A DNA stretch of 34,905 nt from positions 1 to 34,905 of the forward strand of contig NZ_CAMLJP010000068.1 of the NCBI RefSeq assembly GCF_946480385.1. Direction: 5' to 3'. Source of the DNA: an uncultured Azospirillum sp. Its GTDB lineage: Bacteria; Pseudomonadota; Alphaproteobacteria; Azospirillales; Azospirillaceae. The notes beneath the pieces are model-generated. The model was given only the letters and a program-made list of their open reading frames with translations, was not told the origin of the DNA and made no database searches. Positions 18,849 to 29,472 of the stretch are shown here, piece by piece. The translations under genes and the position numbers were made by a program. Numbering within the stretch: the stretch's first letter is position 1; every line of letters starts with the position of its first letter.

Positions 18849-18909
18849 TTCGCTGCCGCCTTCGCCCGCCCGATCTGCCGGCCGGTGGCAAGCCTGTGCA
18901 TGGACCGAA

Positions 18910-18923
18910 CATATCTTAATATG
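18910..18923. promoter_or_regulatory. AT-rich palindrome upstream of the tyrosinase gene
   Basis: CATAT and ATATG flank CTTA, an AT-rich palindrome unusual in this GC-rich sequence, between the kinase and tyrosinase genes. TATACA at 18991-18996 could be a -10 box nearer the gene, but no good -35 box is seen. The site may be an operator. Confidence 0.25.
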
Positions 18924-19037
18924 CTGGCTTTCGTCCGTTGCCTTCGGCGCGGCATCGGTGGTCGATTCCGCGTGCAAACAGTCAGTTTCCTATACAAGCT
19001 TCTCCTGTTTTTATCGTTATGCGGGAGCTTGACCGAA

Positions 19038-20645
19038 ATGAATTTCAATCGGCGCGATTTTATGGCATCCGCCGCCGCTGTGGCGGGTGCCTCCATGCTG
19101 CCCTTCGCCCCGGCGCGGGCGGCCACGGCGAAATACATTCGCTACAGCGCGACCAGCGACGAAGGCAAGGCGATGCTGCGCAGCTACGCCACCGCCGTCC
19201 AGCGTATGGTGAGCCTGCCGCCCGACCATCCGCACAACTGGTTCCGCAACGCCTTCGTCCATTTCATGGACTGCCCGCATGGCAATTGGTGGTTCTATGT
19301 CTGGCACCGCGGCTATCTCGGCTATTTCGAGGAGACGGTGCGCAGGTACAGCGACAATCCGAATTTCGCCTTCCCCTATTGGGACTGGACGGTTCTGCCG
19401 CAGATCCCGAACGAGATGTTCGACGGCGCCCTGACCCCGGTCAGCGAAGCCTTCCTTCCCTACACCAAGGACCTGAAGACCTTCACCGTCACCATCAAAC
19501 CGGCGATGAAGAAGTATTGGGACACGCTGAATACGGCGCAGCGCAAGCAGCTGGACATCCGCGGCTACAGCAGCTTCGACAAGCTGTGGGACGACGTCAC
19601 CGGCTGCAGCCACGGCAAGTGCGATCCGGGCAACCAGGCCTTCGCCGCGACCGACCGGGCGCGCTATCTGACTCGTGAGAATCCGAAGCTGGACGACAAG
19701 ACGGCCAAGGCCTGCTCGCCCCATACGGTGCTGACCGGACTGCTGCCGGTGGACTACTACAACGCCGACGTGACGCGCAGCTTCACCAGCTCCAAGACGG
19801 CGTCGCACAACGTCATGCCGGGCGGGGATACCCAATTCTCCGTTCTGGAGGGCCAACCGCACAACCTCGTCCACAACTACATCGGCGGCGTCGGCCCGTG
19901 GGATCCGGGTCCCTACGGCAACATGACCAACTTCCTGTCGCCGGTCGACCCGGTCTTCTTCCTGCACCATTCGAATATGGACCGGCTGTGGGACGTCTGG
20001 ACGCGCAAGCAGCAGCGCCTCGGCCTGCCGATCCTGCCGACCGACAAGGAGGAGCTGTCGCAGCTGTCCCGTGAACCCTTCCTGTTCTTCGTCCGCGCCG
20101 ACGGCACCTATGTCCTCGACGGTCGCGCCGGTGACTATCTCAGCACCGAACGGTTCCAGTACGAGTACCGGCACGGCTTCGGCGACACGGAATCGGCGCA
20201 GGTGGCGGCGGCCAATCCGTCTGCTCAGGTCAAGACTCCGGTCAGGGGCACGGTGGCGAAGGGCGTGGGATCGGTGCAGTTGTCGGCGGCGCCGTCCAGC
20301 CCGGTGGTGATGGCGGTCAAGGTGAGCCGCCCTGCCGGCACCGGCGCCCCGCGGAGCTTCGACCTGCTGATCAACGCGCCGGCCGGCGTGACGAAGGTGG
20401 CGGCGGACAGCCCCTATTACGGCGGCACCATCGGCTTCTTCGGACCGGCCATGCACGGCATGGCGGACGACGCCACCTTCACGCTGCCGCTGCCCCAGGC
20501 CGCACACACCGCCGCGCTGGCGCAGAGCCCGACAGCCAACGCGGCGGCGCCGGCAGCATCCGCAACGCTGGAGGTCCGCCTTGTCCCGACCAATGGCTCC
20601 ACCACCAACGCCGCCGTCAAGGCGGTCTCGCTTCAAGCCCTGTAA
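19038..20645 (+). CDS. Tat-exported tyrosinase with a C-terminal beta domain
   Basis: A 535-residue type 3 copper oxidase that hydroxylates monophenols and oxidises diphenols to quinones. The N terminus NRRDFMASAAAVAGA is a twin-arginine signal ending near ARA (28). The CuA ligands are H75 (VHFMD), H81 (CPHGNW) and H90 (VWHRGY). The CuB ligands are H275 and H279 (QPHNLVH) and a His of the pair 310-311 in FFLHHSNMDRLW. C79 is two residues before H81, which matches the Cys-x-His arrangement that forms a thioether bridge in some fungal tyrosinases. After about residue 400 comes a beta-rich tail, with SFDLLINAP recalling the plant KFDV domain that caps the active site. Three cysteines (190, 195, 226) may form disulfides. 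The start at 19038 has GGGAG upstream. The next gene overlaps its 3' end. Confidence 0.9.
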   Translation: MNFNRRDFMASAAAVAGASMLPFAPARAATAKYIRYSATSDEGKAMLRSYATAVQRMVSLPPDHPHNWFRNAFVHFMDCPHGNWWFYVWHRGYLGYFEETVRRYSDNPNFAFPYWDWTVLPQIPNEMFDGALTPVSEAFLPYTKDLKTFTVTIKPAMKKYWDTLNTAQRKQLDIRGYSSFDKLWDDVTGCSHGKCDPGNQAFAATDRARYLTRENPKLDDKTAKACSPHTVLTGLLPVDYYNADVTRSFTSSKTASHNVMPGGDTQFSVLEGQPHNLVHNYIGGVGPWDPGPYGNMTNFLSPVDPVFFLHHSNMDRLWDVWTRKQQRLGLPILPTDKEELSQLSREPFLFFVRADGTYVLDGRAGDYLSTERFQYEYRHGFGDTESAQVAAANPSAQVKTPVRGTVAKGVGSVQLSAAPSSPVVMAVKVSRPAGTGAPRSFDLLINAPAGVTKVAADSPYYGGTIGFFGPAMHGMADDATFTLPLPQAAHTAALAQSPTANAAAPAASATLEVRLVPTNGSTTNAAVKAVSLQAL

Positions 20646-21527: not shown

Positions 21528-23021
21528 ATGGCTACACTCCTGGACGCTCTCAACGCCGCCGTCAACCACCACATGGCCGGCCATGCCGATGCGGCGGCCG
21601 ATGCCTATCGCCGGATCCTCGCGGCGGAGCCGGCACAGCCCGACACGCTGCACCTGTCCGGCGTGCTGCGGGCGCAGACGGGCGACGCGACGGCAGCGGT
21701 GCGGTGGATCAGCCGTGCGGTGCGCGTCCGCCCCACCGCCCCGGCGCCTTGGGGCCATCTGGGGGCGGCCCTGCGGGCGGCGGAGATGCCGGAGCGGGCA
21801 GAACCGGTGCTGCGGCGCGCCCTGGCGCTCGACCCGGCTGACGGAGACGCGCTGGAGGCGCTGGGCGCCTCGCTGCATGCGCTGGCCCGCTACCCCGAGG
21901 CGCGACGCTGGCTGGACCGTGCGGCCCGGCTGCGCCCCGGCCATGCGGCGACCCTGCTGAATCTCGGCACTGTCCTGCGCGACCAGCGCCGCTTCGACGA
22001 GGCGGAGGCCTGCTTCGACGCCGTGCTGGCACGCAATCCCGCCAATGGCGACGCTCATTTGGCGCGCGCGGTGGGGCGGCTGGTCCGCGGCGATCTGCGC
22101 GCGGGTTGGGAGGGATTCGAGCATCGCTGGCGCCGCTTCGCCAGCCCGCCCTGGGCCGGCCAACCACCGGGCGGCGCCACCATCCTGCTGCACATGGACC
22201 AGGGATACGGTGACGCCATCCAGTTCGTGCGCTATGCCCCGCTGGTGGCAAAGATCGCGGCGCAGGGCGGCGGCCGGGTGGTGCTGGAAACGCACCTGCT
22301 GCTCTACCGACTGTTCAACCACAGCCTGGGGCGCTGCCTGGGATCGTCGATCCAGGTGTTGGTGCGTGGGGAGGATCCGCCGCCGCACGACCTCCATTGT
22401 CCGCTGATGAGCCTGCCGCGGGCCTTCGGCACCGAACTGGGGACCGTTCCCGCCGGCGTGCCTTATCTCGCCCCCGATCCCGGCGACGTCGACCGCTGGC
22501 GCGACCGGCTGGCCGAGGCAGATGGCGATGGAAACGGGGCCGGCCTGCGGGTCGGGCTGGTCTGGGCCGGCAACCCGCAGCACCGCAACGACCGCAGCCG
22601 CTCGATCCCGGTGGCGGCCCTGGCACCGCTGCTGTCGGTGCCGGGGGTGCGGTTCGTCAGCCTGCAGACCGGCGACGCGGCGGCCGTCCTGGACCGCCTG
22701 CCCGGCGTGGCGATCCCGAACGCGATGGAGCGGGTGCGCGATTTCGCCGATACCGCCGCCATCCTCGCCAACCTCGACCTGCTGGTGACGGTCGACACCG
22801 CCATCGCCCATCTGGCCGGGGCGATGGGCGTACCGTGCTGGCTGATGCTTCCCCATGTGCCGGACTGGCGCTGGATGCTCGACCGCGCCGACAGCCCCTG
22901 GTACCCGTCGCTTCGGCTGTTCCGCCAGCCGCGCCCCGGTGACTGGACCACCACGCTGGGCACCGCCGCCGCCGTGCTGAAGGCGCAGGCCGCCCGCGCC
23001 GCCCGGATGGTCACGGGATAA
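21528..23021 (+). CDS. TPR protein with a C-terminal glycosyltransferase-like domain
   Basis: A 497-residue cytosolic protein in two parts. Residues 1-190 form about five tetratricopeptide repeats, with units such as GHLGAALRAAEMPERAEPVLRRALALDP spanning helix pairs. From about 215 onward there is a GT-B, GT9-like domain. HMDQGYGDAIQFVRY opens it, VGLVWAGNPQHRND (about 342-355) is the donor-side signature, and DTAIAHLAGAMG (about 425-436) the C-terminal nucleotide-sugar motif. Proteins of this design are common beside flagellar genes of alphaproteobacteria and are candidates for flagellin or hook glycosylation. The flgE gene starts 220 bases downstream with its own sigma-54 promoter, so this gene is probably a separate unit. 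The ATG follows AGAGG at short spacing. Confidence 0.85.
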   Translation: MATLLDALNAAVNHHMAGHADAAADAYRRILAAEPAQPDTLHLSGVLRAQTGDATAAVRWISRAVRVRPTAPAPWGHLGAALRAAEMPERAEPVLRRALALDPADGDALEALGASLHALARYPEARRWLDRAARLRPGHAATLLNLGTVLRDQRRFDEAEACFDAVLARNPANGDAHLARAVGRLVRGDLRAGWEGFEHRWRRFASPPWAGQPPGGATILLHMDQGYGDAIQFVRYAPLVAKIAAQGGGRVVLETHLLLYRLFNHSLGRCLGSSIQVLVRGEDPPPHDLHCPLMSLPRAFGTELGTVPAGVPYLAPDPGDVDRWRDRLAEADGDGNGAGLRVGLVWAGNPQHRNDRSRSIPVAALAPLLSVPGVRFVSLQTGDAAAVLDRLPGVAIPNAMERVRDFADTAAILANLDLLVTVDTAIAHLAGAMGVPCWLMLPHVPDWRWMLDRADSPWYPSLRLFRQPRPGDWTTTLGTAAAVLKAQAARAARMVTG

Positions 23022-23241: not shown

Positions 23242-25872
23242 ATGAGCATCTTCGGTTCGATGACAACCGCCGTTCTCGGCCTGAATGCCCAGTCGAAGGC
23301 GCTCGGACATATCTCGGATAACATCGCGAACAGCTCGACCATCGGCTACAAGCGGGTCGATTCGGCCTTCGAGACGATGGTCCTGCAGTCCAGCCAGCGT
23401 CTGCACGAACCGGGCGGGGTCACGGCGCAGCCGGTCTTCATGAACAACATCCAGGGCAGCCTGACCCAGGTGCAGAGCCCGACCAACATCGCCATCCAGG
23501 GCCAGGGCTTCTTCAGCGTCACCAAGGTCGCCACCCAGGGGTCGAGCACGCTGGTGCAGACGCAGACGGGCACGGTCAACTCCTCGGCCGCCTTCTACAC
23601 CCGCGCCGGCGACTTCGAACTGGACAAGAGCCGCTATCTGGTCAACAGCTCCGGCTATGCCCTGAACGGCTGGCTGGTCGATCCGGTGACGGGCGTCCTG
23701 CACAAGGACCAGGTGGCGCCGATCCAGGTGAACTCGCTGATCGACAAGCCGGTGGCGACCAACACCATCGACCTGTCCGCCAACCTGCCGGCAACGCCGA
23801 AGCCGGGTGAGAAGATTCCCGACAGCAGCATCCAGATCTTCGACAGCCAGGGCAACCCGCGCACCGTCAACTTCAAGTGGCGGCAGCAGGCGGACAGCAG
23901 CTGGCGCATGGTCCTGGACGCGCCGGGTTCCAACACCAAGCCGGTCGACGGCACCTTCACCGGCAATCCCGCCACCGTGACCTTCGGCCAGAACATTCCC
24001 GGCCAGACCGCGGTCGCCCAGGTGAACGTCATCACCCTGGCCGGCAACAACACCAACGGCCAGGACAACCTGCGCATCGGCGACACCTATTCGGTCAAGG
24101 TCAACGGCACCAACTACAGCCTGAAGATCACGGCCGACAACATCGGGTCGATCCGGACATATTCCGGTCTGGCCGGCGCGCTGGCCAACCAGATCAACTC
24201 CGCCTCGCCGGCGGCATCCGTGCTCGCCACCTCGTCGGGCCAGACGATCCGCGTCACCGCCCGCGATCCCGGCACCCCGTTCAAGCTGAACACCGACGTG
24301 GTGTCCGGCACCAACACCACCAACACCATCGTTTCCCAGACCTCGACGGCGGCGACGGCGAGCGCCGGTGAAATCGACAAGTTCCAGTTCCCGCAGACGC
24401 AGGTCGAAGTCGGCGACTCCTTCACCATCAATGTGAACGGCACGCCGATCAGCTACACGGTGACCGCCGCGACCTATCAGAGCTATTCGACGGTGAGCGA
24501 CGTCGTGTCCCAGCTGGCCGGCAAGATCAATCAGGCGCTGGGCTCCACCGTCACCGCCTCGTCGGCCGGCAACATCCTGTCGATCCAGGCCAATGCGGTG
24601 AACACCAATGTCACCTCCAGCGCCAGCGTGACCAACTCCAGCGCGTCGGTGAACACGATGAGCTCGCTGCCGTCGGTCGCCAGCGTGGCCGGCGTGCGCC
24701 AGAGCCGCACGGTGACGCTGACCGGCACGCCGGGCGACATCGGCACGCAATACACCCTCAGCATCAACGGCACGGCGGTGACCTACAGCACCACCGGCGA
24801 AGAGATGACGATGGAGGACATCACCGCGGCGCTGGCGAACAAGATCAACTCCAACACCTCGCTGCCGGTGACCGCCACCGCGCAGGGCGGCGTCATCACC
24901 GTGACTGCCAAGACCGCGGCCACGCCGGCCAACGCCAACACGATGACCGGCACCGGCTCCATCACGCTGGGCGGATCGACGGTGGACGTCGGCGACACCT
25001 ACACCGTGACCGCCGGCGGCACGACCTATTCGTTGACCCTGGACAACGCCAACATCAACACCTACAGCACGCCGAACGCGGTGCTGAACTATTTCGCCAC
25101 TCAGATCACCGCCGCCGGCGGCACCGCGACGGTGACCGGCAACGTGCTGGCCGTGACCAGCGATGCGACGGCGACCGGCACCGTGAACGACGCGACTGCC
25201 TATCAGTTCACCCTGGACCAGAGCGCGGTCGCTGGCCAGACGCCGGCCCATATCGGCCTGACCTTCGGCAAGACACCGGAGACGGTCGGCACGCTGACCA
25301 ACATCTCCACCGCCCTGGTCGGCACCGGCACGGCGGTCAGCGCCGCAAACCAGTCGGCCGGCTCCGACGCCACCGTCACCTTCACCGTCGATTACGGCTT
25401 CGGTCCCCAGCAGATCTCGCTGAACCTCGGCAAGTACCAGAAGCCGGGCGGCCTGACCCAGTATGCCGGCGAGGAGATCAACGTTACCCAGCTGGTCCAG
25501 AACGGCGCGCCACGCGGACAGTTCAAGGACGTGGTGTTCGGCGACAACGGCACCGTCCTGGTCAACTACGACAACGGACGGTCGAAGATGATCGCGAAGG
25601 TGCCGATCATCACCTTCAACAACCCGAACGCCCTCCAGCGCGAGTCCGGCGGCGTCTTCGTCGAGAGCGAAGAGGCCGGCAAGCCGAACTTCAACGATCC
25701 GGAGACGAACGGCGCCGGTGCGGTGGTGGCAAACAGCGTGGAAAGCTCCAACGTCGACATCGCCGACGAATTCACCAAGATGATCGTCACCCAGCGGAGC
25801 TATTCCGCCAACGCGAAGATCGTCACCACCTCCGACGAAATGCTTCAGGAAGTGCTGGGGCTGAAGCGCTAA
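23242..25872 (+). CDS. flgE: Flagellar hook protein FlgE, enlarged by internal repeats
   Basis: An 876-residue hook protein, more than twice E. coli FlgE (about 400). The N-terminal rod motif MSIFGSMTTAVLGLNAQSKA, then SDNIANSSTIGYKR (25-38), is canonical, as are FNNPNALQRESGGVFVESEEAG and the C-terminal SSNVDIADEFTKMIVTQRSYSANAKIVTT (835-863). Residues about 180-255 and 700-795 are the usual D2-like parts. Between them, about 258-650, lie four copies of an 80-110 residue beta-rich domain that the E. coli protein lacks. It is exported by the flagellar type III system and forms the curved hook; the added domains would face outward. An RpoN promoter lies upstream and GGAGA precedes the ATG. flgK starts 145 bases after the stop. 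Confidence 0.95.
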   Translation: MSIFGSMTTAVLGLNAQSKALGHISDNIANSSTIGYKRVDSAFETMVLQSSQRLHEPGGVTAQPVFMNNIQGSLTQVQSPTNIAIQGQGFFSVTKVATQGSSTLVQTQTGTVNSSAAFYTRAGDFELDKSRYLVNSSGYALNGWLVDPVTGVLHKDQVAPIQVNSLIDKPVATNTIDLSANLPATPKPGEKIPDSSIQIFDSQGNPRTVNFKWRQQADSSWRMVLDAPGSNTKPVDGTFTGNPATVTFGQNIPGQTAVAQVNVITLAGNNTNGQDNLRIGDTYSVKVNGTNYSLKITADNIGSIRTYSGLAGALANQINSASPAASVLATSSGQTIRVTARDPGTPFKLNTDVVSGTNTTNTIVSQTSTAATASAGEIDKFQFPQTQVEVGDSFTINVNGTPISYTVTAATYQSYSTVSDVVSQLAGKINQALGSTVTASSAGNILSIQANAVNTNVTSSASVTNSSASVNTMSSLPSVASVAGVRQSRTVTLTGTPGDIGTQYTLSINGTAVTYSTTGEEMTMEDITAALANKINSNTSLPVTATAQGGVITVTAKTAATPANANTMTGTGSITLGGSTVDVGDTYTVTAGGTTYSLTLDNANINTYSTPNAVLNYFATQITAAGGTATVTGNVLAVTSDATATGTVNDATAYQFTLDQSAVAGQTPAHIGLTFGKTPETVGTLTNISTALVGTGTAVSAANQSAGSDATVTFTVDYGFGPQQISLNLGKYQKPGGLTQYAGEEINVTQLVQNGAPRGQFKDVVFGDNGTVLVNYDNGRSKMIAKVPIITFNNPNALQRESGGVFVESEEAGKPNFNDPETNGAGAVVANSVESSNVDIADEFTKMIVTQRSYSANAKIVTTSDEMLQEVLGLKR
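24013..25191 (+). repeat. Four degenerate protein-level repeats inside FlgE
   Basis: Units cover residues about 258-348, 376-455, 486-560 and 570-650. Each has a GDTY or GDSF-type strand, a NGT/GGT turn, an L-A-x-x-I-N helix end and a terminal I-x-V-T-A-type strand. The G-D positions are 280, 391, about 499 and 584. DNA identity between units is low, so the expansion is old. Confidence 0.85.
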
Positions 25873-25894
25873 GCGCGGCCCTGACCTTCTGATT

Positions 25895-25955
25895 ACCTGA
25901 TCGCCTCTTTACCGATCGCCCGACTACCGATCGCCAGTTCCCTGATCGTCTGAAT
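25895..25955. repeat. Four short tandem repeats between flgE and flgK
   Basis: Units of 15-16 bases start at 25895, 25911, 25926 and 25941. All share CC(T)GATCG(C/T)C, with the palindrome CGATCG in the middle two. A 7-bp stem (25959-25965 with 25980-25986) follows, just before flgK. The role is unknown: a regulator array, a message-stability element or simple slippage. Confidence 0.7.
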
Positions 25956-26017
25956 GGGGGGGCGGCGGCCATCCCGGCACCGCCCCGACCATCCCGATCC
26001 GTGAAAGGTCTCCTGCC

Positions 26018-27427
26018 ATGTCCCTCTTCGCAGCCTTGAACAGTGCCACGGCCGGGCTGCGCACGGTCCAGACCAACGTCAAGCTGGTTTCGGACAACAT
26101 CGCGCAGGCCAACGATCCGACCCGCACGCGCCACACCGCCCAACAGTCGGTGGACGCCAGCGGTCAGGTCATCAGCACGACCTATCGCCGGGAAGTCGAC
26201 AAGGCGCTGATGGCCCAGGTGATGGATCTGACCTCGCGCGACGGCGGATCGCAGGTGACCTCGACCTACATGCAGCAGCTGGGCGACCTGATGCGGACCA
26301 CCAACGGGACGCCGCTGCTGAACGACTACGCCGACAAGTTCCAGGCGGCGATCAAGACGCTGTCCACCTCGCCGGAGGACGAGACGGCGCAGTACCAGCT
26401 GGTCCAGGCGGCCGAAAGCTTTTCGCGCGAGATCCGCCGCGTGTCGGAGGGCGTGGAGCAGCTCGACCGTGACATGTCGACCGACATCACCAAGTCGGTC
26501 GACACGGTCAACGACCTGCTGAAGCAGATCAACTCGATCAACAACGACATGGTGTCGCTGCAGGGCCAGGGGTCCGCCGCCAACGCCGTCGCCGACAAGC
26601 GCGATGGGCTGGTGCGCGAACTGAGCACCTATATGGGCATCCGCACCGTGGAGCGGCCGGACGGACGGCTGGCGATCTTCACCCCGTCTGGCCTGGCGCT
26701 GGTCGATGCCCAGCCGGCAAATCTTTCCTATGACGGCGGCAACATCAACCTACAGGTCGGCAATCAGATCACCTCGATCAACAGCCACCTGACCACCGGC
26801 AAGCTGGGCTCGCTGATCCAGATGCGCAAGGACGGCTCGACGACCGAGCCGCCGACGCCGGCCAGCGGCGACCCGACGACCGAGGTCATCCGCAAGCTGC
26901 GCTCGCAGCTGGACGAGTTCGCCAAGGCCTTCACCGGCCCGACCAAGCCGGGCGAGCCGACCAGCTTCGCCGACGCCTACAACGATGCCAGCCCGGCCGC
27001 CGACGGCGAACAGACCAACCAGTTCTTCACCGGCAGCGACCGCTTCACCATCGCGATCAACCCCAAGCTTTTGGACAACACCAGCAAAATCAAGCAGTCC
27101 GCCATCGACGGCATGGTCCAGTCGGTCAATGCCGCCGGCCGCAGCTTCAGCGCCGACGGGCTGCAGATGAAGGACACCACCTACAGCGCCATGGGCAGCG
27201 CCATCACCGGAACCTGGATGTCCGCGGCCAAGACGGCCAACACCGCCGCCGATTCCAACAAGGCCTCCATGCAGCTCCTCAGCGAGCGGTACCAGTCGCA
27301 GACGGGCGTGAACATCGACGAGGAAATCGCCCAGCTGCAACAGCTCCAGACCTCCTACCAGGCGTCGGCACGGGTCATGCAAGTGGCCAATGCAATGTTT
27401 GACGCGCTGGAGGCGGTGGTCCGATGA
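26018..27427 (+). CDS. flgK: Hook-filament junction protein FlgK (HAP1)
   Basis: A 469-residue FlgK, shorter than the E. coli protein (547). The start MSLFAALNSATAGLRTVQTNVKLVSDNIAQAN is clear, but the usual NNIANVNTPGYSRQ segment reads DNIAQANDPTRTRHTAQQ, so the TPGY part is gone. A long coiled-coil region follows (about 100-200: DYADKFQAAIKTLSTSPE, then EQLDRDMSTDITKSVDTVNDLLKQINSIN, and ADKRDGLVRELS). The C-terminal helix GVNIDEEIAQLQQLQTSYQASARVMQVANAMFDALEAVVR is fully canonical. It joins the hook to the filament via FlgL. GAAAGG precedes the ATG, and the stop overlaps the flgL start as ATGA, giving coupled translation. Confidence 0.94.
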   Translation: MSLFAALNSATAGLRTVQTNVKLVSDNIAQANDPTRTRHTAQQSVDASGQVISTTYRREVDKALMAQVMDLTSRDGGSQVTSTYMQQLGDLMRTTNGTPLLNDYADKFQAAIKTLSTSPEDETAQYQLVQAAESFSREIRRVSEGVEQLDRDMSTDITKSVDTVNDLLKQINSINNDMVSLQGQGSAANAVADKRDGLVRELSTYMGIRTVERPDGRLAIFTPSGLALVDAQPANLSYDGGNINLQVGNQITSINSHLTTGKLGSLIQMRKDGSTTEPPTPASGDPTTEVIRKLRSQLDEFAKAFTGPTKPGEPTSFADAYNDASPAADGEQTNQFFTGSDRFTIAINPKLLDNTSKIKQSAIDGMVQSVNAAGRSFSADGLQMKDTTYSAMGSAITGTWMSAAKTANTAADSNKASMQLLSERYQSQTGVNIDEEIAQLQQLQTSYQASARVMQVANAMFDALEAVVR

Positions 27428-29472
27428 GCTCGATAACGGGAGTCAGCAGCTACTCGAAATATCTGAGCCTTGTCCGGAACCTGTCCGGGGGCCAGAACGA
27501 CATCAACCAGCTGTCCGAACAGCTGACCACGGGCAAGAAGTCGGTCGATCTCAACGCCTACGGGCCGGAGGTTCAGAAGCTTCTGGACCTGCGGTCGGAG
27601 ATGGCGAAGAAGGACAACTACGTCCAGAACATCAACATGGCGGCGCCGCGCGTGCAGGCGACGGACAAGGTGCTGACCTCGCTGGAATCGATCGTGTCGA
27701 GCTGGACCTCCAGCACCACGATGCCGTTCGAGCCGGGTCCGGCCAGCGTGGCCACGCCGATCAACACCAATCCCGACGGGATGAAGATGTCGGTCGACGC
27801 CACCAAGTCGAAGCTGACGGTCGGCGCCAAATACACCGTCACCGCGGTTCCGTCGCAGCAGGGCCCGAACGGCACCTTCGACGTGACCGTGACCGACGGG
27901 CTGGGCGGCAAGACCACCCGCGCCATCAATCTGGGCACCACCCCGCCCAACGACGGCAAGGGATACAATTTCAACATCTCCGGCGGCCCCGGCGAGGGCG
28001 CGATCCTGAACCTCAGCTTCGACACGCTGAAGGCGTCGTCGAGCAGCAGCTTCTCCGTCACCTTCCCGCAGGCCGATCAGGTGAAGGACCGCGCCGAGGG
28101 CGCCATGCGCGACATCCAGGCGCTGATGAACCAGCGCTTCGGCGACCGCTACCTGTTCTCCGGCTCGCGGTTCGGGACGGAGCCGGTCACCGACCTGATG
28201 GCGACGAAGCAGACCAGCAAGATCACGCTGAACGGCGCCGTGGTGAACGCCGACGATTATTTCGAAGTGACGGTCTCCGGTAAGACCTTCGGCTATCAGA
28301 TCCAGGCAACCGATCCGAAGACGCTGACCTTCGTCGCCCAGACGCTGACCACCCAGATCAACGCCGCTAGCCCGCCGCTGCCGATGACGGTGTCGACCTC
28401 CAACGGCATCATCACGCTGGTCGGCCAGGATCCGGGGCAGACGTTCGACCTGTCGGCGCGCGTCATCAACTCCGCCACGGTGGAGAACACCGTCACCGCG
28501 CCGACCACCACTCAGGTGCCGACGACCGGGCAGCAGCAGATCGACAGCTTCACCCTGAACGGCGCCGCGGTGGACATCGGCGACACCTTCGAATTCACCG
28601 TCGCGGTCGGCGATCCCGACGATCCGTACAACCAGAACTACTACACGAAATACCCCAACGAACCGCGCGACCTGCCGCCCTACCAGACCTACACGGTGCG
28701 CTACACGGTCAGCGACACCGACTATGCCGCCGGCGTCACCGACGTCAGCCAGGTGGCCGACAAGCTGCGCCAGAACTTCGCCAACCTGAACCCGGCCCCG
28801 CCGGTCACCATCGACGCGGTCGGCAACGGTCCCGGCATCGCGCTGACCAGCACGGCCAACGCCGACCCCAATCATCCCAACCGCAGCTCGCTGTTCTCGA
28901 CCAGCGCCAAGGTGACGAACGGGTCGCTGGAGAACACCATCTCGGTCGGCACCCTGCCACCGGAGCAGGACAGCCTGATCGACGTCCCCTATGCCGATCC
29001 GCCCGACCTGCCCTTCTACGATTCCGAATATCTGACCAAGGGCAAGAACGCCGAGGCGTACCGCAAGTCGCAGGTGACCATCGACGACAACCTGAACCTG
29101 ACCTATGGGGTCAGCGCCGACGACAAGGCGTTCCAGACCCTGGTCAAGGCGATGCAGCTGGTGCGGACGGCGGCGGCCAATCCCGGCAAATGGACGGAGT
29201 ACAGCACCCAGGCGCGCGAGATGCTGACCCAGGCGACCGACCAGATCCGGTCGATCCACGCCAAGGTCGCGTCCGACGCCGCCACGCTGGAAACCACCAA
29301 GAACGCCCACACGGACTCGATCGCCACCCTGACCGACCGCATCGCCAAGATCGAGGGCATCGACCAGACCGAGGTCGCGGCCCGGCTGAGCAGCGCGATG
29401 AACGTCCAGCAGGCGACCTACACCGTCGCCGGCCAGACGCAGAAGCTGTCGCTGCTGAACTATCTGGCCTGA
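27424..29472 (+). CDS. flgL: Hook-filament junction protein FlgL (HAP3), enlarged by internal repeats
   Basis: A 682-residue FlgL, about twice the E. coli length (317). Residues 1-95 (flagellin-like N-terminal helices: GGQNDINQLSEQLTTGKKS) and 560-682 (C-terminal helices: KVASDAATLETTKNAHTDSIATLTDRIAKIEGID) are the canonical ends. GDRYLFSGSRFGTEPV (240-255) is the family hallmark. Residues 96-220 form a first extra beta domain. After the hallmark lie two units of the same repeat found in FlgE (about 264-350 and 371-500). The protein adapts FlgK to the filament. The repeat domains would lie on the outside of the structure. The ATG overlaps the flgK stop. A 19-bp inverted repeat follows 36 bases after the stop. 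Confidence 0.93.
   Translation: MSSITGVSSYSKYLSLVRNLSGGQNDINQLSEQLTTGKKSVDLNAYGPEVQKLLDLRSEMAKKDNYVQNINMAAPRVQATDKVLTSLESIVSSWTSSTTMPFEPGPASVATPINTNPDGMKMSVDATKSKLTVGAKYTVTAVPSQQGPNGTFDVTVTDGLGGKTTRAINLGTTPPNDGKGYNFNISGGPGEGAILNLSFDTLKASSSSSFSVTFPQADQVKDRAEGAMRDIQALMNQRFGDRYLFSGSRFGTEPVTDLMATKQTSKITLNGAVVNADDYFEVTVSGKTFGYQIQATDPKTLTFVAQTLTTQINAASPPLPMTVSTSNGIITLVGQDPGQTFDLSARVINSATVENTVTAPTTTQVPTTGQQQIDSFTLNGAAVDIGDTFEFTVAVGDPDDPYNQNYYTKYPNEPRDLPPYQTYTVRYTVSDTDYAAGVTDVSQVADKLRQNFANLNPAPPVTIDAVGNGPGIALTSTANADPNHPNRSSLFSTSAKVTNGSLENTISVGTLPPEQDSLIDVPYADPPDLPFYDSEYLTKGKNAEAYRKSQVTIDDNLNLTYGVSADDKAFQTLVKAMQLVRTAAANPGKWTEYSTQAREMLTQATDQIRSIHAKVASDAATLETTKNAHTDSIATLTDRIAKIEGIDQTEVAARLSSAMNVQQATYTVAGQTQKLSLLNYLA
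28213..28923 (+). repeat. Two FlgE-type repeats inside FlgL
   Basis: Unit 1 (residues 264-350) holds QINAASP and QDPGQTFDLSARV, close to FlgE unit 1 (QINSASP and RDPGTPFKLNTDV). Unit 2 (371-500) opens QQIDSFTLNGAAVDIGDTF, close to the opening of FlgE unit 2 (EIDKFQFPQTQVEVGDSF). Order and linkers also match, so these look like a copied two-unit module. Confidence 0.8.

Follow-up and report, generated by a model that had tools for sequence, protein, structure and literature searches.

Why are the hook protein FlgE and the junction protein FlgL of an Azospirillum flagellum so long, and what does their additional sequence build? The question is raised by a contig of an uncultured Azospirillum sp. 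(NZ_CAMLJP010000068.1, positions 1 to 34,905; this whole stretch of 34,905 nucleotides is referred to as the window), which encodes FlgE (23242..25872, + strand, 876 aa), the hook-filament junction protein 1 FlgK (26018..27427, +, 469 aa) and the hook-filament junction protein 2 FlgL (27424..29472, +, 682 aa). The E. coli FlgE and FlgL are about half as long. An original prediction for this locus, made from the letters alone, had claimed such a difference from relatives, and it holds for Salmonella, whose FlgE has 402–403 residues in structure chains and whose FlgL has 317 (PMC5691160). The same prediction had described shared repeat units in the two proteins. We find that the units of FlgE and FlgL are one homologous, same-fold module of approximately 85 residues, inserted between the conserved halves of the core.

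The three genes lie where the original prediction placed them, and the family matches agree. FlgK scores above the cut-off of the NCBIfam FlgK model, and FlgE above that of the FlgE/F/G subfamily model. The FlgE- and FlgL-specific NCBIfam models match the window proteins, but below their cut-offs; by its sequence, the third gene product is recognised as a FlgL-type protein. The best stretches of FlgE against solved hook proteins comprise residues 11–187 (to 251 in another chain) and then 661 onward, leaving a long middle with no match to these structures. FlgL has no sequence match to solved structures up to an E-value of 1.

In FlgE, four units occupy this middle: unit 1 at 24019..24300 (residues 260–353), unit 2 at 24373..24633 (378–464), unit 3 at 24700..24942 (487–567) and unit 4 at 24955..25194 (572–651), referred to as E1 to E4. 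FlgL carries two, L1 at 28210..28464 (residues 263–347) and L2 at 28537..28917 (372–498), the latter with residues ~396–420 inserted between its strands 2 and 3. All are on the + strand. The FlgE units were located with a hidden Markov model (HMM), and L1 with the HMM and blastp. The counting HMM had units of both FlgE and FlgL in its training set, and its counts are no independent proof of homology. The independent proof comes from an HMM of FlgE units only (n = 134) run on FlgL. It finds L1 at an E-value of 6.2e-14, scaled to 6000 proteins, while the best decoy among 25 reversed and 250 shuffled FlgL sequences reaches 3.0; this is the significant profile match that the original prediction called for. 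The best score of the window FlgK against this HMM is an E-value of 89. The original observation, four units in FlgE, at least two in FlgL and none in FlgK, is confirmed. In the other direction, an HMM of L1 alone recovers units in 29 of 29 FlgEs at 0.01. By blastp, FlgE 257–470 and FlgL 260–497 align collinearly with 29% identity over 248 aa (E 2.6e-11). The two inserts score 186 in a Smith-Waterman alignment, against a mean of 61 and a maximum of 100 for 1000 shuffles (z 13), and reversing the FlgL insert lowers the score to 67, the shuffle level.

The second FlgL unit gives weaker matches. The HMM of FlgE units finds it weakly, in two pieces (0.029 and 1.6). Profile-profile comparison of L2 with the FlgE units, however, gives 96.9% (P 1.8e-10; 20 column shuffles at most 0.8%), and the model shows the same order of strands and helix around its insertion. 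Because of this comparison and this order of secondary-structure elements, L2 is placed in the same family.

What fold does the module adopt? The unit models from FlgE (E1 by AlphaFold2, pLDDT 84.7) and from FlgL are alike, each predicted as beta-beta-beta-alpha-beta-beta-beta, and they match the same PDB entries; the structure prediction proposed as a check on the shared origin thus came out in its favour. The model matches the beta-sandwich with one flanking helix known as a lateral domain from the sheath and nozzle proteins of phage tails, from FliD and from flagellin. At the first insert site of FlgL, residues ~107–213 (27742..28062, +) are modeled as a separate all-beta domain that lacks the helix and is not called as a unit. 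Dongia-type FlgL has a recognisable unit at a similar place.

We then ask which known family the module is related to. Flagellin_IN (PF07196) is a family of repeats that occurs in FliD and hook proteins; we take the 'IN' of its name and description to be its defining feature. In hmmscan, with matches listed up to an E-value of 10 and most of those above 0.1 dropped by the filters, neither window FlgE or FlgL nor any of the six units matched it. In profile-profile comparison, a profile of alignment A1 (30 of 184 units, none of them a second unit of FlgL) scores 93.0% (P 3.5e-7) in hhalign against 31 Flagellin_IN segments (one of 32 was left out as truncated), and the best of 20 column shuffles scores 0.4%. 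As single groups, FlgL unit 1 reaches 47% and the flagellin unit described below 28.8%. In four of four scanned Dongia-type FlgLs an above-cut-off Flagellin_IN match (within 514–561) falls inside units (within 486–571) called by the Azospirillum-trained HMM; these four were chosen for a listed PF07196, which 4 of 120 listed proteins carry. The unit consensus contains QIN, with the Ile column conserved in at least 90% of the 30 units. Like Flagellin_IN, the module resides in flagellar axial proteins and has an Ile (followed by Asn in the consensus) after the helix, whereas Flagellin_IN spans ~55 positions and the unit, with extra strands, ~85. Flagellin_IN is itself widespread, scoring above cut-off in 91 of 150 genomes of the phylum and, among 14 controls, also in E. 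coli, B. subtilis and T. maritima. In a genome search, long FlgE orthologues also gave weak matches to Flagellin_IN (E about 0.006–0.8), on which nothing is based here. Judging from these profile comparisons, the module is a divergent relative of this widespread family. For single units, all Pfam matches lie below the cut-offs, the best being Arg_repressor_C (0.0029), CDC48_2 (0.0032), DUF4402 and Phage_nozzle (both 0.017); Arg_repressor_C, CDC48_2 and DUF4402 were not accepted as relatives.

The resemblance to phage tails extends partly to the sequence. FlgE unit 3 matches the phage tail-sheath family phrog_165 at positions 104–179 (E 3.2e-9), and FlgL unit 1 matches it at 0.0027; among the 30 units, 13 do so at 0.1 or better, the best at 8.8e-10. 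In hhalign, the sheath segment scores 96.8% against E3 (P 3e-10; 20 column shuffles at most 6.0%) and 88.9% against L1. The remaining scores are low, at 22% for E1, 10% for E2, 0.3% for E4, 0.2% for L2 and 21% for the flagellin unit, and the Flagellin_IN segments show no profile match to the sheath segment (0.6%). Because of these low scores, only part of the units can be linked to the sheath. Tail-sheath proteins of phrog_165 are encoded in Azospirillum genomes themselves (L094:1289-2767 in genome G001; L097:841-2322 in genome G033), with a related module at residues ~100–180; at the level of sequence, they partly bridge the outer domains of flagella and those of phage tails. The spread of the fold is known: published accounts state a beta-sandwich-plus-helix domain for sheath, nozzle, auxiliary capsid, FliD and flagellin proteins (PMC12846349), liken a crassvirus capsid domain to FliD and FliC (PMC10172136), and describe the flagellin layout as somewhat resembling sheath proteins (PMC9230969). 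The units share the beta-sandwich and helix of the sheath and nozzle lateral domain (8kee, 9khy, T7 gp12), which is reported in FliD and flagellin too, but differ in being repeated in tandem and in belonging to subunits of the hook and the junction. Neither FlgE, FlgL nor FlgK is named in the literature passages on this domain, and a shared FlgE/FlgL module is nowhere stated in the portion of the open-licence literature that was consulted. A wider idea is that a single exchangeable module clads these flagella on hook, junction and filament and also supplies contractile phage tail sheaths with their lateral domain, the tandem units of the Azospirillum and Dongia hook and junction having come from gene transfer between phage tails and flagella. 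We consider this unlikely; if true, it would give two unrelated tubular machines a common surface-cladding part.

How widely, and in which proteins, does the module occur? Named homologues come nearly all from Azospirillum, where the FlgL homologue is often annotated as 'hypothetical protein'. Across 29 FlgEs (that of the window and 28 fetched ones, which include three second copies), 2 units occur in 1 sequence, 3 in 2, 4 in 15 and 6 in 11, and all 25 long Azospirillum FlgLs carry 2. Full-length FlgL is present in 32 of 40 named loci. By the genus-trained HMM, each of these 32 has 2 units in FlgL and 0 in FlgK, and FlgE has 3, 4 or 6 units in 31; the other FlgE frame is short, apparently cut by the contig end, and has 2. 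The other 8 of the 40 loci, Microvirga and further weak FlgL matches, are without units. Searched as a profile, the 30-unit alignment hits 37 of 37 genomes of the genus and 1 of 24 others. At 1e-4, at least 9 of 240 genomes of the class match, at most 22 candidates having been scored per genome, and the class-wide counts are therefore lower bounds. Within the genus, G035 (L085) departs from the pattern: its FlgE carries 2 divergent units, its FlgLs of 368–378 aa are short and have none, and its genome has no other match to the unit profile at an E-value of 1. A further FlgE with 3 or 4 units is encoded in three Azospirillum genomes (L082, L083, L084, L091), and in G010 this second copy adjoins a unit-bearing flagellin.

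The module reaches beyond the hook and the junction. In G001, the nearest genome compared (33% of the window's sampled 31-letter words in common), nine matches at 0.01 or better fall in FlgE (four), FlgL (two), large flagellins (two) and a phage tail-sheath protein (one). The search of Azospirillum flagellins suggested by the original prediction thus finds the unit in large flagellins: eight complete frames carry it, with E-values from 1e-7 to 1.2e-5. These frames were fetched because they match the unit; L089 alone was checked in Pfam and the others were named from their ends by eye, and one further frame, shortened by masked bases, was left out. The flagellin units score 96.2% against the FlgE units (P 2.2e-9) and 96.2% against FlgL unit 1 in profile-profile comparison. 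In the two Dongia-type genomes fetched, FlgE has 3 units, FlgK 1 (L161:3121-4836; L162:3823-5553) and FlgL 4–5, the weakest counted units scoring 0.0007 to 0.011. Dongia-type FlgL homologues carry 4 units in 107 of 120 and 5 in 13 of 120. Niveispirillum relatives have units in both FlgE and FlgL. A rule that FlgK never has a unit, true in the window and in 32 of 32 loci, is therefore untrue for Dongia-type relatives. On this sequence evidence, the module is not private to FlgE and FlgL and occurs also in flagellins and Dongia-type FlgK. Unit-bearing proteins of unassigned type are found in other alphaproteobacterial families as well (L166, L167, L168, L169; frames of 136–1033 aa); one of them, of 379 aa, has no Pfam match.

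Was the module copied recently between FlgE and FlgL? A block duplication of units 1–2 within Azospirillum, from FlgE to FlgL or the reverse, would account for the collinear blastp match and for the pairs E1–L1 and E2–L2, which give the top profile scores among the four FlgE positions, with modest margins. To this extent, the original claim that two consecutive units correspond in order stands; the pairing is not recovered in a tree of 96 units and 89 columns, of low resolution and rooted for drawing only. There, the units group by position, with FlgE E1 beside F4, E2 beside F5 and E3 beside F6, and FlgL units 1 and 2 each form a separate clade. The tree thus pairs up neither E1 and L1 nor E2 and L2, and at its low resolution no supported branch nests FlgL units in FlgE units or vice versa; it supports neither yes nor no on a single origin for each protein's units. 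FlgL unit 1 also scores higher against Dongia-type FlgL unit 1 (89–99 by direction, with a deeper alignment) than against E1 (59–70). At the DNA level, flgE and flgL units have no long identity, the best significant matches being 39 bp at 79% and 25 bp at 88%, and base composition is even across them (GC 0.63–0.66). Since units stand in both proteins of the Dongia-type and Niveispirillum relatives, copying, if any, seems to predate the genus. We reject recent copying from FlgE to FlgL on the tree and the DNA, and hold the block duplication in either direction to be very improbable. Given the grouping by position, the lack of long DNA identity and the even GC, an exchange between the two proteins, if one took place, seems to be old; neither the tree nor the DNA settles its direction. 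The view that a domain passed from one axial protein to another, with FlgE and FlgL as the two partners, is not supported, for the unit also occurs in flagellins and Dongia-type FlgK, is related to Flagellin_IN and groups by position.

Within FlgE, the sequences indicate that copy number shifts through gain and loss of tandem units. Profile scores agree with the tree in making E1–E3 a shared core, to which E4 is added in one lineage and three further units in the other. E4 lies near the flagellin units in the tree (92/90) and has no clear counterpart in 3-unit and 6-unit FlgEs; unit 3 of Dongia-type FlgE lies next to the E3 units (89/82, below the tool's star mark).

What might the units do? 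In our explanation, the FlgE and FlgL of one Azospirillum flagellar system carry copies of the module of approximately 85 residues in their presumably surface-exposed part. The module is an old, divergent relative of Flagellin_IN, shares its modeled fold with the lateral domains of sheath and nozzle proteins in phage tails, and has come to occupy several axial proteins of flagella in Alphaproteobacteria: FlgE, FlgK, FlgL and flagellin. Facing outward, the units would form extra outer layers on the hook, the junction and the filament. By analogy with the domains D3–D4 of Campylobacter FlgE, they would most likely add contacts between neighboring subunits and so make the hook and the junction of a polar flagellum stiffer and stronger. 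The original idea of an outward-facing domain is borne out insofar as the insert lies in the part that faces outward in other species; its orientation here we infer. In C. jejuni, the extra FlgE domains D3–D4 form outer rings, and their deletion leaves cells very poorly motile with many broken flagella (PMC5097172); because of that phenotype, we favor bracing contacts. Campylobacter also resembles the present system in combining extra outward FlgE domains with an enlarged FlgL (750–950 aa; PMC5691160) in one flagellum. PMC12826043 reports that the polar flagellum of A. brasilense has a large, glycosylated flagellin of 65 kDa and is thought to mediate adsorption to wheat roots. The flgE-flgK-flgL locus probably belongs to the polar system, since the large flagellin frame (~627 aa) fits this 65 kDa glycosylated polar flagellin.

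Several results weigh against this explanation. The solved C. jejuni FlgE (5jxl) is only a weak fold match to the unit model (Foldseek E 1.1, TMq 0.43) and has no place among the best 50 rows of a second structure aligner. In this respect Campylobacter differs: its extra FlgE domains may work like the units, but so weak a match does not establish them as the same domain. No Pfam model reaches its cut-off on the window units, which are therefore not formal members of Flagellin_IN. FlgL unit 2 alone scores 0.9% against Flagellin_IN in hhalign, and an HMM of it finds FlgE units in none of 29 FlgEs at 0.01. The low resolution of the tree counts here as well. Finally, the constant 2 units of FlgL beside the 2 to 6 of FlgE, and G035 with units in FlgE only, argue against strictly matched packing, and no interlocking of matched units is implied. 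Considering all these points, we give the whole explanation, an old Flagellin_IN-related module spread over axial proteins as an outer layer that would brace the hook and the junction, a probability of about 0.6.

Two other roles deserve attention. The units could be a near-neutral outer decoration on a face that tolerates insertion, perhaps under selection by flagellum-binding phages or predators and without a mechanical role. FlgE copy numbers of 2, 3, 4 or 6 within one genus, the unit-free FlgL of G035 and the strong divergence between unit positions would all fit, as would the sequence variability that the outer domains of C. jejuni FlgE tolerate (PMC5097172). We nevertheless find this reading doubtful, for all 25 long Azospirillum FlgLs examined have exactly 2 units and the positions are kept across most of the genus (E1/F4, E2/F5, E3/F6), which suggests constraint.

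Alternatively, the units could present a glycosylated, sticky surface for binding plant roots or other surfaces, rather than serve mechanics. The root adsorption and the glycosylated flagellin of A. brasilense point this way, and by eye the units are rich in T, S and N. Some weight is added by the gene directly upstream of flgE (21528-23021, +), which encodes a tetratricopeptide repeat (TPR) protein with a glycosyltransferase-family-9-like C-terminus (below the Pfam cut-off), a possible gene for glycosylation of the hook or the junction. Relatives with at least 58% identity occur in 25 of the 32 loci with full-length FlgL (one at only 43% coverage); in the other 7 no close relative was found. 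Against a sticky surface, the hook and FlgL make up a tiny share of the surface compared with the filament, Dongia-type relatives also carry units, and the same fold occurs in phage tails; we regard it as an improbable main function. Further upstream of the TPR gene and flgE, a tyrosinase-domain protein (18885-20645, +; Pfam 4.4e-35) has no evident flagellar role.

Compared with the original prediction, which is partly supported, the observation was correct and its interpretation over-specific. What had been an unannotated insert becomes a defined, countable module over several axial proteins of one flagellum. By sequence and modeled fold, hook and junction proteins join a domain family already noted in print for phage tails, FliD and flagellin, and the interest lies in the expansion of this module over hook, junction and filament together with the partial sequence bridge to phage tail sheaths. 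Azospirillum is a soil bacterium used as a biofertiliser, and its natural FlgE variants with 2, 3, 4 or 6 units make a role of the outer domains in hook stiffness testable.

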